Shown: piece after piece, positions 5,842-22,484 of the stretch
How positions within the stretch are numbered: the stretch's first letter is position 1
How the letters are laid out: the number at the start of each line of letters is the position of its first letter
Assembly: GCA_018268835.1 (NCBI GenBank)
Contig: JAFDVU010000002.1
Span: 1 to 64,000, forward strand
Length of the DNA: 64,000 nt
Origin: Acidobacteriota bacterium
Lineage (GTDB): Bacteria; Acidobacteriota; Terriglobia; Bryobacterales; Bryobacteraceae
Direction: 5' to 3'
The notes under the pieces: model-generated
What the model was told of the DNA's origin: nothing
Database searches by the model: none
The model's input: only the letters and a program-made list of their open reading frames with translations
Program-made: the position numbers and the translations under genes

Positions 5842-7269
5842 ATGGGGACCCAAATCAACTCGGCGCACGGCCCGGCGGTGGCCGCTACGGCCGACGAGCA
5901 ACTTCGTGCGGCCGAAATCAGCGATCCACTCCGGCAGTTCGCGTTTCGTTTCTCGCTGGTGCTGATCTTTCTGCGTTTCAGCCTGGCCCAGTTCATCCTG
6001 ACTTACCTCACGGACCGGAATCTCTATCTTCTGTATTTCTTCGGCCTGCCCGCGCTGATCGGTGTTGTTTTGAATGGCGGAATCCGCCGGACGTTTGAGT
6101 CCCGCGCGGCCTGGTTCTGGGCAGGCTATGCGCTGTGGTTGATCGTCGCCCTTCCGTTCAGTGTCTGGAGGGGCGGCTCCATCCCTATCATATGGGGCTT
6201 TCTGCGCGCCGATTTTCCAACCCTGCTGGTGATCGGCGGGCTGGGCATGACGTGGCGCGAATGCCGTGCAGTACTGCACACGATCGGGTGGGCCGCGGTC
6301 GTCAGCACGTTAGCCGGACCGATTTTCGATAAGGATGTCGGTCCCGACCGGGTTGGGCTGGCGTTCGGTACGGTGGCGGACCCCAACGATTACTCGGCGC
6401 ACCTGTTGCTGGTACTCCCATTTCTGCTGTGGGTGGTCTTCAGTTCGAAGTCCACAGTGCTTCGTGCGCTGGCGCTCTGCGGGCTGGGCGGCGGCATGCT
6501 GGTCATCGTCAGGACCGCTTCGAGAGGTGCGGCGGTGGCGATTTTTGTGGCGATGCTTTTTTTCCTGTTCCGGGCCACCTCGCGGCAGCGGATTGCGATG
6601 CTGCTGATACTGCCGATTGGCGGACTCGTCATACTGGCAGCCTCGCCCCATGCGGCGCTGGATCGGATGATGTCGGTGGCGGCGCGCAGTTCCGGGGACT
6701 GGGCCGTCGAAACCGATGAATCCGCCATGTCGCGCTTCTATTTACTGAAAAAGAGCATCGAGTACACCCTGAAATTTCCCCTTTTTGGAGTTGGCGCCGG
6801 CCAGTTTCAACTCTATGAAGGGGAGAACAATGCGATCATCGGTACGCACGGAATGTGGCATGAATCCCACAACACGTATACCCAGGCTTCCAGCGAGTGC
6901 GGCATTCCGGCATTGATCTTCATGTTGGGCGGCCTTGTTTGTTCGTGGCTTTCCCTTTCGGCGGTTCACCGCAAGGCACGTGAGCGAATCGACTGCCAGG
7001 ACATCCAGAGTGCCGCCTTCTGCGCCTTGCTCAGCATGGTGGGATTCTGTACCGCAGCGACGTTCCTGAACTTCGCGTACTCGATGTATTTGCCCGCCAT
7101 TAGCGGCATCGCGATCGTGTTGGCCCGCTGTGCGTCTTACGAGGTGCAGGTCAGGGCCACGGCCGGGCCGCCGCTGCCAGTTGCTTTCGCACCCTGGGCG
7201 ATGCCGGCGCCGGCACGCCGTCGCGCCGTGAAGACCGGGTTGCCCGACCGTCAGGCGAAGACCCTGTAA
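5842..7269 (+). CDS. O-antigen ligase / Wzy-type polymerase family membrane protein
   Basis: From the ATG at 5842 this is a 475-residue inner-membrane protein with about ten to twelve hydrophobic segments, from FSLVLIFLRFSLAQFILTYL near residue 40 to YLPAISGIAIVLARC near residue 420. A large periplasmic loop around residues 280-340 contains FPLFGVGAGQFQLYEG and GTHGMWHESHNTYTQ, the loop pattern of Wzy_C proteins (WaaL ligases and Wzy polymerases). It would polymerise repeat units or attach glycan to an acceptor. AGGTGG at 5831-5836 is the ribosome site; a GTG at 5833 would overlap it. A decayed second copy of its 3' end follows directly. Confidence 0.82.
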   Translation: MGTQINSAHGPAVAATADEQLRAAEISDPLRQFAFRFSLVLIFLRFSLAQFILTYLTDRNLYLLYFFGLPALIGVVLNGGIRRTFESRAAWFWAGYALWLIVALPFSVWRGGSIPIIWGFLRADFPTLLVIGGLGMTWRECRAVLHTIGWAAVVSTLAGPIFDKDVGPDRVGLAFGTVADPNDYSAHLLLVLPFLLWVVFSSKSTVLRALALCGLGGGMLVIVRTASRGAAVAIFVAMLFFLFRATSRQRIAMLLILPIGGLVILAASPHAALDRMMSVAARSSGDWAVETDESAMSRFYLLKKSIEYTLKFPLFGVGAGQFQLYEGENNAIIGTHGMWHESHNTYTQASSECGIPALIFMLGGLVCSWLSLSAVHRKARERIDCQDIQSAAFCALLSMVGFCTAATFLNFAYSMYLPAISGIAIVLARCASYEVQVRATAGPPLPVAFAPWAMPAPARRRAVKTGLPDRQAKTL

Positions 7270-19011: not shown

Positions 19012-19359
19012 ATGCACGAACTGTCCATCGCCGATTCGGTCCTCGAAGCCGTTCGCGCCGAAGCCGGCCGTCATCCGGGCGCGGTCCCGGTGAAGATTGG
19101 GCTACGCATCGGCGAACTCGCCGGCGTGGATCCCGATGCGCTCACGTTCGGCTTCCAGGCACTCACGGCGGGGACCCCATGGAACGGGCTGGCGATCGAG
19201 ATCGAAAACACCCCGCGCCGCCATCGTTGCCCAACGTGCGCGACCGAGTTTCGCGTAGTGGAGTACCGCAGCGGCTGCCCCGCGTGCGGCGCCGCCCGCA
19301 CCGAGTGTATCGGCGGCGACGAACTGGAACTGGCGTACGTCGAATTGGAGGAACCGTGA
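19012..19359 (+). CDS. hypA: Hydrogenase nickel-insertion protein HypA
   Basis: HypA helps HypB deliver nickel to the hydrogenase large subunit. The 115-residue protein starts MHELSI, whose His2 binds nickel, and its zinc site is formed by RCPTC (about residues 72-76) and CPACG (about 89-93). It lies 3 bases after hypE and overlaps hypB by four bases (GTGA). Confidence 0.96.
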   Translation: MHELSIADSVLEAVRAEAGRHPGAVPVKIGLRIGELAGVDPDALTFGFQALTAGTPWNGLAIEIENTPRRHRCPTCATEFRVVEYRSGCPACGAARTECIGGDELELAYVELEEP

Positions 19360-20027
19360 ATCGAGTCGAAGTCGAAAAGAAAGTCCTGAGTGAGAATGAT
19401 CGCATCGCCGCCGATCTGCGGCGGCGTTTCAAGGAACACGGCGTCCTCTGCCTGAACCTCATCAGCTCGCCGGGCGCCGGCAAGACCTCGCTGCTCGAGC
19501 GCACGCTCGAAGGCTTCCCTTCCGCTGAACGCGTCGCCCTGCTGACCGGCGACATACAGACAGATAACGACGCAACGCGCCTGGCGCGCGCCGGCTTCCC
19601 GGTGAAGCAGATCACCACCGGCGGCGCCTGCCACCTGGACGCGCGCATGATCGAGCGCGCGCTCGAGGGCTGGCGCCTCGAAGACCTCGACCTGCTGTTG
19701 ATCGAAAACGTGGGCAACCTGGTCTGCCCCTCCAGCTACGATCTCGGCGAAGAGGCCAAGATCGTGGTGCTCAGCGTGGCCGAGGGCGAGGATAAGCCGC
19801 TCAAGTATCCGTCCATCTTCTTTAAGAGCGTGCTCCTGGTGCTCAACAAGGTGGACCTGCTGCCCTACGTGCCTTTCGATATCGCGCGAGCCCGCGAATA
19901 CGCCCGCCGCGTGCATCCCGGCATGGAGATCGTGGAGGTCTCCTGCACCACCGGCCAGGGGCTGGACGACTGGCGCGCCTGGCTCGAGAAGCGCCGTGCT
20001 GCATCACGCATCAAAGTGACCGCATGA
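19356..20027 (+). CDS. hypB: Hydrogenase nickel incorporation GTPase HypB
   Basis: From the GTG at 19356 this is a 223-residue SIMIBI-class GTPase. It has the P-loop SSPGAGKTSLLE (about residues 37-48), GDIQTDNDATR, the metal-site motif TTGGACHLDARM, IENVGNLVCPSSYDLGE and the NKVDLLPY specificity motif. There is no histidine-rich nickel-storage stretch at the N terminus. The TGA at 20025-20027 sits inside the left copy of the 7-base duplication that flanks the repeat insertion. The preceding ATG overlap (ATGA at 20024-20027) appears to be the original hypF start. Confidence 0.95.
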   Translation: MNRVEVEKKVLSENDRIAADLRRRFKEHGVLCLNLISSPGAGKTSLLERTLEGFPSAERVALLTGDIQTDNDATRLARAGFPVKQITTGGACHLDARMIERALEGWRLEDLDLLLIENVGNLVCPSSYDLGEEAKIVVLSVAEGEDKPLKYPSIFFKSVLLVLNKVDLLPYVPFDIARAREYARRVHPGMEIVEVSCTTGQGLDDWRAWLEKRRAASRIKVTA

Positions 20028-20218
20028 CCGCTTTGGTAGCGTCGGCCTCCCGGCCGACCTTGGCTGGCGAAGACGTGCCGACCTGCGAGGACGGAGGCCC
20101 GAACGCTTGGGGTGCGCCGCCGATCGAGATCAGCATGCAATGGGAGATTGCGGTTCGATCCAAAGGTCGGCCGGAGGCCGACGTTACAACAGGCCAGGAG
20201 GCCTGCGCTACTGACCGC
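20025..20218 (+). mobile_element. 180-bp palindromic repeat element with 7-bp target duplication at the hypB/hypF junction
   Basis: The element spans 20032-20211 and is flanked by direct repeats TGACCGC at 20025-20031 and 20212-20218. Its ends are related inverted repeats: GTAGCGTCGGCCTCCCGGCC at 20036-20055, and GGCCGGAGGCCGACGTTAC at 20169-20187. A third related arm, GGCCAGGAGGCCTGCGCTAC, closes the element at 20192-20211. No transposase is encoded. Removing the element plus one repeat (187 bases) restores ATG-ACC-GCG-CGT in frame with hypF and an ATGA overlap with hypB, which strongly supports insertion. It looks like a MITE or REP-type repeat. Confidence 0.8.
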
Positions 20219-22484
20219 GCGTAAACGCATCCACGTCTCCGGCATCGTCCAGGGCATCGGCTTCCGCCCGTTCGTCTACCGACTCGCACGCCGTTGCGGA
20301 CTCACCGGCTTCGTGCGCAACACCTCCGACGGAGTGGTCGCCGAAGTCGAAGGCGATCCCCCCGCGATCGAGCGCTTCCTTGCGGCGCTGGCCGGCGAGC
20401 ATCCTCCCTTCGCTCACATCCACTCCACCAACGTCACCGCGATCGAGCCCGCCGGCGACCGCGACTTCACCATCGGCGAAAGCGGCGATGCCCCGGATCA
20501 GTTCGTGCTTGTCTCGCCCGACCTCGCCACCTGCGACGATTGCCGCCGCGATTTCACCAACCCGCGCGACCGCCGCTCCGGCTATCCCTTTACCAACTGC
20601 ACCAATTGCGGCCCGCGCTACACCATCATCCTCGACATCCCGTACGACCGGCCCGCCACGACCATGCAGCCGTTTCGCATGTGCCCCGCATGCCGCGCCG
20701 AATACCAGGACCCCGCCGACCGCCGCTTCCACGCGCAGCCCAATGCCTGCCCCGAGTGCGGCCCCAGCCTGACGCTCGAAACCGCGGGCGAACCCCCGCT
20801 GCACGGCAACGCCGAGGTGCTGCGCGAAGCGCGCCGCCTGTTCGCCGCGGGCGCGATTGTGGCTATTCGCGGACTCGGTGGCTTCCAACTGGCCTGCGAC
20901 GCCGAAAACCCCGATGCCGTCCGGCGCCTGCGCGAACGCAAGCGCCGCAGTGGCAAGCCCTTCGCCCTGATGGCGCGCGACCTCGCCGCCATCGAGCGCT
21001 TCTGCGCCGTCTCGGCAGAGGATCGCCGCGCGCTGGAAGGCGTCGCCCGGCCGATCGCGATCCTGCCGCGCCGCGCCGGCGACGGCATCCCGCACGAAGT
21101 CGCGCCCGGCAACCGCACGCTCGGCGTGATGCTGCCCTATACGCCGCTGCATCACCTGCTCTTCGAGGACGCCCCCTACCGCGTGCTGGTGATGACCAGC
21201 GGCAACCTGAGCGAGGAGCCGATCGTCACCGGCAACCGGCAGGCGCGCGAACGCCTCGCCCCGCTGTGTGAGGCCATCGTGCTCCACGATCGCGAGATCT
21301 ACATGCGGGTGGACGACTCCGTGGTGCGCACCTTCGAAGGCCGCGCCCGCGTACTGCGGCGCTCGCGCGGCTACGCGCCGTACCCGGTGGACCTCGGCGC
21401 GGAAGCCGTCGAAGTGCTCGCCTGCGGCGGCGAGTTGAAGAACACCTTCTGCCTCACCAAGGGCCACCATGCGCTGCTCAGCCAGCACATCGGCGATCTG
21501 GAAAATTACGAGACTCTCGACTTCTTCCGCGAAACGCTCCACCAGATGAAGAAGCTCTTCCGCGTGGAGCCGCGGGTCGCCGCCTACGACCTGCACCCCA
21601 ATTACCTCAGCACCCGCTTCGCCCTCGAACTCGACGGCGTCGCGAAGACCGCGGTGCAGCACCACCACGCACACATCGCCGCCTGCATGGCCGAGAACCA
21701 CCTGCGCGATACCGTCATCGGCATCGCCTTCGACGGCACCGGCTACGGCACCGATGGCGCCGTTTGGGGGGGCGAGTTCCTGGTCGCGGACCTCACCGGC
21801 TTCGAGCGGCGTGCGCACCTGCGCTACGTGCCGCTCGCCGGTGGCGACCGGGCCATCCGCGAACCATGGCGCGCCGCCCTGGCGCACCTCACCGGCGCCT
21901 TCGGCGAAGGGACGCTGCCCGATCTCCCGCTGTGGAACGCGATCCCGCCGAAAAAAGTGGACCTGGTCCGCACCATGCTCCGCCGGAGCGTCAATACGGT
22001 GCCCACGTCCTCCTGCGGACGCCTCTTCGATGCCGTGGCCTCGCTGCTCGGCCTGCGCCACGAAGTCACCTACGAAGGCCAGGCGGCAATCGAACTCGAA
22101 GCCATCGCCGCCGCCGGTATCGCGGGCTCCTATCCCTTCGACATCGCGGAGACCGCCCCGTGGCAGATCGATCCGTGCGCCACGATTCGGGCGATCGTGG
22201 CGGCGCTCGGCCGCGGCGACCCGGCGGCAGCGATCTCCGCGCGCTTCCACAATACCGTCGCCGCGATGATCCTCGAAGTCGCCCTCCGCGTGCGCGCCGC
22301 CGAGCGCCTGAACCGGGTATGCCTGAGTGGCGGCACCTTCCAGAACGTCTACCTGCTCACCCGCGCGCTCGAGGGACTGCGCAGCGCGGGCTTCGATGTC
22401 TATTTGCACTCGCAGGTGCCGCCCAACGACGGCGGTCTCTCGCTCGGCCAGGCGGCCATCGCCAACGCCCGCTACTGTCCGTGA
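20112..22484 (+). CDS. hypF: Carbamoyltransferase HypF with its start displaced by a repeat insertion
   Basis: HypF makes the cyanide ligand precursor by carbamoylating the HypE C-terminal cysteine from carbamoyl phosphate. From TARKRIHVSG at 20214 onward it is normal: acylphosphatase domain with GIVQGIGFRPFVYR, zinc-finger motifs CDDCRRDF, CTNCG, CPACRAEY and CPECG, a YrdC-like domain with RRSGKPFALMARDL and MTSGNLSEEP, and a Kae1-like domain with HHHAHIAACMAENHL and GIAFDGTGYGTDG. The original ATG was separated from it by the 187-base insertion, which is out of frame. The remaining in-frame starts are GTG 20112 and TTG 20148 inside the element, or CTG 20211 exactly where the ATG used to be. 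It overlaps the convergent hydrolase gene by 13 bases. Confidence 0.93.
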   Translation: MRRRSRSACNGRLRFDPKVGRRPTLQQARRPALLTARKRIHVSGIVQGIGFRPFVYRLARRCGLTGFVRNTSDGVVAEVEGDPPAIERFLAALAGEHPPFAHIHSTNVTAIEPAGDRDFTIGESGDAPDQFVLVSPDLATCDDCRRDFTNPRDRRSGYPFTNCTNCGPRYTIILDIPYDRPATTMQPFRMCPACRAEYQDPADRRFHAQPNACPECGPSLTLETAGEPPLHGNAEVLREARRLFAAGAIVAIRGLGGFQLACDAENPDAVRRLRERKRRSGKPFALMARDLAAIERFCAVSAEDRRALEGVARPIAILPRRAGDGIPHEVAPGNRTLGVMLPYTPLHHLLFEDAPYRVLVMTSGNLSEEPIVTGNRQARERLAPLCEAIVLHDREIYMRVDDSVVRTFEGRARVLRRSRGYAPYPVDLGAEAVEVLACGGELKNTFCLTKGHHALLSQHIGDLENYETLDFFRETLHQMKKLFRVEPRVAAYDLHPNYLSTRFALELDGVAKTAVQHHHAHIAACMAENHLRDTVIGIAFDGTGYGTDGAVWGGEFLVADLTGFERRAHLRYVPLAGGDRAIREPWRAALAHLTGAFGEGTLPDLPLWNAIPPKKVDLVRTMLRRSVNTVPTSSCGRLFDAVASLLGLRHEVTYEGQAAIELEAIAAAGIAGSYPFDIAETAPWQIDPCATIRAIVAALGRGDPAAAISARFHNTVAAMILEVALRVRAAERLNRVCLSGGTFQNVYLLTRALEGLRSAGFDVYLHSQVPPNDGGLSLGQAAIANARYCP

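Follow-up and report, generated by a model that had tools for sequence, protein, structure and literature searches.

The junction between hypB and hypF, read here within a window of 64,000 nucleotides (the whole stretch of DNA that was analyzed), quite likely represents an ATGA overlap of the two genes into which a cluster of GTAG REPs, of the kind mobilized by RAYTs, was inserted with a 7-bp duplication, so that HypF is now probably made from CTG 20211 by way of an AGGAGG carried in the third REP of the cluster. Loss of the original ATG and the 7-bp duplication are both well supported, and the inserted element at 20032-20211 is a REPIN plus one extra REP rather than a stand-alone transposon. 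REP insertions are usually regarded as extragenic and neutral, and the history of an insertion can seldom be read because empty sites are missing; at hypB/hypF the junction of the ancestor is open to reconstruction, and relatives allow it to be checked. The kind of system is already known from REPs, REPINs, and RAYTs, including REPs at the N termini of open reading frames (PMC3733652). What is new is that the junction could be reconstructed, that 7 bp were duplicated locally, and that a REP possibly supplies a ribosome-binding site.

As it stands, hypB occupies 19356-20027 of the plus strand, with a GTG start and a TGA stop at 20025-20027, and encodes a protein matching PF02492 (CobW/HypB/UreG, E 1.8e-21) with up to 84% identity to HypB homologues. 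Two plus-strand copies of TGACCGC (20025-20031 and 20212-20218) enclose 180 bp that split the junction, an arrangement proposed by the sequence-only reading and borne out by direct inspection of the sequence. Chance repeats of 7 bp at points 180 bp apart are found at about 0.02% of random placements in the window, or 0.09% when 0-4 nucleotides of slop are allowed. Read from CTG 20211, the hypF frame is intact to 22484 (plus strand) and matches TIGR00143 with E 6.6e-230 and 765 bits; together with the Pfam matches this gives the full domain set of HypF, comprising acylphosphatase, zinc-finger, YrdC, and Kae1-like domains. A third plus-strand TGACCGC, missed in the earlier reading, is directly legible at 20017-20023 within the final hypB codons and makes the left flank near-tandem (GTGACCGC-A-TGACCGC, 20017-20031), which leaves room for another insertion history.

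When the flanks are joined without the element, HypB ends in ...IKVTA* and overlaps HypF as MTARKRIHVSGIVQGIGFRPF, with HypF beginning MTARKRIHVSG. The former hypF start is thereby placed at 20024-20026 (plus strand), where an ATG overlaps the hypB stop as ATGA. This reconstruction, already offered from the sequence, now has the backing of two relatives, recovered by searching for neighboring HypB and HypF genes among genomes of the family, in which the arrangement is free of the repeat (GCATGACCGCG... and GCATGATCGCC...). In genome G189 (locus L172) the junction reads GCATGACCGCGGCGGTCACGCGG and HypF MTAAVTRKRIAISGIVQGVGF, quoted also as GCATGACCGCGGCGGTC; in G152 (L169) the corresponding sequences are GCATGATCGCCCGCCGTCAC and MIARRHLHVAGIVQGVGF, quoted as GCATGATCGCCCGCCGT. 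Both keep the ATGA overlap and the HypF N terminus. In most other relatives HypF starts some 9-10 residues ahead of the GxVQGxGF motif, with a few slightly longer, and the TIGR00143 match begins at residue 7 when numbering is taken from CTG 20211. Together, the empty-site homologues, the register of the relatives, and the start of the TIGR00143 match indicate that the right flank is authentic HypF and that the position of the ATG is sound. The hypF loci of the same genus are poor empty-site controls because the neighbors of hypF differ there, and a scan of contigs for HypF added more distant relatives only.

The element itself is made up of three palindromes with GTAN heads. REP1 (20036-20058, plus strand), identified by family scan, reads GTAGCGTCGGCCTCCCGGCCGAC with its head facing outward. 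REP2 (20166-20187, minus strand), GTAACGTCGGCCTCCGGCCGAC, is an exact family match followed on its own strand by the family tail CTTTGGATCGAACCG, which is conserved over about 25 nucleotides in 63 copies, and REP3 (20189-20211, minus strand), GTAGCGCAGGCCTCCTGGCCTGT, matches the family with one mismatch. REP1 and REP3 carry GTAG heads, placed 0-2 nucleotides before the palindrome as in GTAG (or GTRG) REPs, and REP2 carries GTAA; copies elsewhere in the genome mostly have GTAG or GTAC. REP1 and REP2 form an inverted pair (20036-20187, plus strand) for which folding predicts a single long hairpin, as is typical of a REPIN, with -96.9 kcal/mol for RNA of the whole element. The likeness to published REPINs (PLoS Genet 2011, PMC3116915) lies in the two inverted REPs with a spacer, predicted as a hairpin in a single strand, whereas here a third REP is added, the spacer has diverged, and there is a single full copy. 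No second copy of the REP1/REP2 pair with its spacer occurs in the genome; within the element no promoter or intrinsic terminator was found, and it matches no known RNA family.

Across the host genome the two REP types are present in at least 94 and 73 copies, figures that are lower bounds because repeats probably break this draft assembly of 367 contigs, in which several REP matches fall at contig ends. REPs at or near such ends are seen, for example, in C10, C85, C168, C195, C217, C316, and C318. Reversed control patterns for both types gave no match in the genome, and the first type, which is sharply bounded at GTA and carries the conserved tail CTTTGGATCGAACCGGAATC, is missing from 236 further genomes belonging to the family. 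There are 68 partial matches to the element across the genome, the best covering 67 of 182 bases at 91% identity. A search for further copies of 20032-20211 with flanking 7-bp repeats recovered its component repeats in abundance and neither a second full-length composite nor 7-bp repeats at the other sites tested. On contig 153 (L097), REP copies at 6592 and 6864, about 270 bp apart, have like flanks, as though one stretch, REP included, had been copied.

Placement of these REPs, as judged with a crude gene caller, is extragenic in the manner of GTAG REPs: 41 lie in convergent gaps, 37 in codirectional gaps, and 4 in divergent gaps, with 3 inside predicted open reading frames, 2 of which are doubtful regular-expression matches. 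They often touch the upstream stop, and the TAG of GTAG is frequently that stop codon. Within codirectional gaps (L062-L157) the head points towards the nearer gene, in 11 of 12 cases near stops and 13 of 16 near starts (Fisher p 0.0003, with thresholds picked after viewing the data). The hypF cluster fits this layout, its GTAG starting 8 nucleotides past the hypB stop and its CTAC ending at the hypF start; because the junction overlaps, a REP landing beside the stop necessarily meets the next start, which accounts for the start codon being struck. The placement had been called unusual, a judgment that must be softened, as REPs here habitually abut coding ends and REPs at N termini of reading frames have been published, as have REP-given stop codons (PMC3733652). 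The GTAG-tagged families described there (Di Nocera et al. 2013, PMC3733652) share the GTAG head, the short GC-rich palindrome, the high copy number, the preference for convergent and codirectional gaps, the head TAG serving as upstream stop, and some sites at N termini, but at the locus studied here the insertion lies in a start-codon overlap that could be reconstructed precisely, homologues provide the empty site, and 7 bp are duplicated. Elsewhere in the genome, a cluster of four REPs (L068 1118-1385; contig 22, 45617-45884) comes immediately after a reading frame for the large subunit of a NiFe hydrogenase and seemingly gives that frame its stop codon.

The genome encodes one Y1 transposase, which is a RAYT: it has the HuH motif and the catalytic tyrosine, with the motifs NHVH and YIEGNP, and matches the family model NF047646 at 82.5 bits against a cut-off of 80. 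The gene (L061 1267-1872, contig 354) is flanked by GTAGGGTAGGCCTCCGGCCTACC and the inverted GTAGCGTCGGCCTCCTGGCCGACC, with a GTAG REP on one side and an inverted REP bearing the REP1 stem on the other, so that the REPs of the hypF cluster are of the type surrounding the resident RAYT. The unit fits into an operon at the ccmB/ccmC junction, where ccmB ends inside the left REP (its terminal VLVG* kept) and the RAYT TGA overlaps the ccmC ATG as ATGA. No target repeat like TGACCGC surrounds the unit at this site. RAYTs of relatives within the genus and beyond (L231, L232, L233, L234, L237) likewise have GTAG REPs, whose stems differ and whose CCTCC loop is shared; the complement of this loop is a Shine-Dalgarno sequence. 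A Y1 transposase gene with an HuH motif lying between inverted GTAG REPs resembles a REPtron (RAYT/TnpA-REP; PMC2817692, PMC8266576), but here the RAYT is remote from hypF, and a 7-bp duplication such as that at hypF is not expected from this class of enzyme.

Origin of the duplication is therefore the point at which alternative histories have to be weighed. A genome-specific REPIN with a third REP would have entered the ATGA overlap in an event that doubled TGACCGC, and the junction before insertion would be expected to read ...GCATGACCGCGCGTAAACGC, containing ATGACCGCG. The IS200/IS605 kin of RAYTs make no larger target duplications (PMC2817692), and the doubling more probably arose when the REP cluster was captured by template switching or by inexact repair of a strand break, rather than in the normal RAYT reaction. 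Among the seven clusters with outward heads on both sides, a direct repeat is found at the hypF cluster only (7 bp), the other six sharing at most 4 bases, and at 92 single-sided REP sites the longest shared words are those of random pairing, with no excess of duplications. Since it is absent from these sites and from the RAYT unit, the duplication is genuine but local and not a signature of the family. The main rival, an unlikely one, is that RAYT insertion was clean: TGACCGC would first have been expanded by slippage (ATGACCGCTGACCGCG), and the REP cluster would then have entered a CT between the copies (GACCGCT^TTGGTAG ... CTACT^GACCGC). The near-tandem TGACCGC at 20017-20031, the cleavage of TnpA-REP at CT beside a REP (PMC8266576), and the lack of duplication at other REP copies and the RAYT unit are all in keeping with this history, but two events are required, the intermediate would already be without an in-frame hypF ATG start, and the REP family shows no CT for cleavage conserved at a set spacing ahead of GTAG. 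Under this history no close strain would carry the empty site ATGACCGCGCG. The inverted ends and the direct repeats, seen together at this single site, would suggest a DDE-transposase MITE that ends in GTAG...CTAC and duplicates 7 bp of its target. This reading has been largely refuted and is very improbable, given that no second full-length copy exists, that other copies have no target duplications of fixed length, that the number and order of the REP modules change freely, and that these REPs are of the kind found at the resident RAYT unit. From the earlier view of a mobile repeat, what survives is insertion of a repeat family with a real 7-bp duplication; what is not borne out, on the same evidence, is its implied picture of a transposon that duplicates 7 bp as it inserts. 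Very improbable, too, is an assembly artefact joining unrelated REP-bearing contigs: the assembly is a draft with REPs at contig ends, but hypB and hypF each stand on the proper side and follow the order expected, and joining the flanks restores exactly the ancestral junction found in relatives.

The old ATG now opens a leader reading frame of 66 codons (20024-20224, plus strand) that ends in TAA at 20222-20224, 11 nucleotides past CTG 20211-20213, overlapping the HypF frame; it has no Pfam match. A TAG at 20037-20039 closes the HypF frame upstream, and translation thus confirms both the new stop and the restriction of HypF starts to GTG 20112, TTG 20148, and CTG 20211. CTG starts are rare. 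The CTG (plus strand) nonetheless has a modest edge as the candidate start, since it stands where the ATG stood, in agreement with the N-terminal register of relatives and the beginning of the TIGR00143 match. REP3 places a Shine-Dalgarno-like AGGAGG (20196-20201, plus strand) 9 nucleotides before this codon, and its anti-SD duplex of -10.3 kcal/mol is the strongest among the starts tested and is equalled at 1.7% of the CTGs in the window. In the predicted fold REP3 is a separate hairpin with AGGA in its loop and the CTG mostly unpaired. The former ATG, with anti-SD pairing of just -3.6, probably relied on coupling to hypB; ribosomes reading the leader could, on terminating, reinitiate at the CTG and so perhaps assist its use.

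Initiation at GTG 20112, or at TTG 20148, would give HypF an arginine-rich, REP-encoded extension of 33 or 21 residues, respectively, and is possible, if less likely than the CTG. In favor of the GTG, this codon is widely used for initiation, the GGAGG upstream of it pairs almost as well as the AGGAGG before the CTG (-9.5 against -10.3 kcal/mol), the reading frame of HypF runs open from 20040, and other bacteria are known to have protein segments encoded by REPs (PMC3733652). This GGAGG is, however, more widely spaced (about 14 nucleotides), the GTG is inside the predicted long REPIN hairpin, and relatives have no such extension, while the purine run before the TTG is just about 2 nucleotides away. 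Annotation may nevertheless call HypF from GTG 20112 and so acquire a spurious REP-encoded N terminus. That the insertion disabled hypF, leaving a recent pseudogene or very weak expression, appears quite improbable: the ATG and the coupling to hypB are gone and a very stable hairpin lies between the genes, but the frame is intact over 757 residues. Moreover, hypF is the sole full HypF copy in a genome with NiFe-hydrogenase large-subunit genes, which favors its continued use.

The reconstructed junction opens a direct way of asking whether a new ribosome-binding site, brought by a REP hairpin, can take the place of a start codon and its coupling. Family-wide selection for such supply is not evident among the REPs of this genome, where orientation near starts fits but GGAGG is too far from most predicted starts; for this reason use as a Shine-Dalgarno sequence is argued for hypF alone. 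As a tentative and rather doubtful extension, REPs with CCTCC loops might act as portable translation signals that, when transcribed in reverse, would present (A)GGAGG within the loop of a hairpin. A REP landing at an overlapping junction would then both break coupling and supply a ribosome-binding site, yielding at this locus a CUG-initiated hypF whose translation may depend on its leader.
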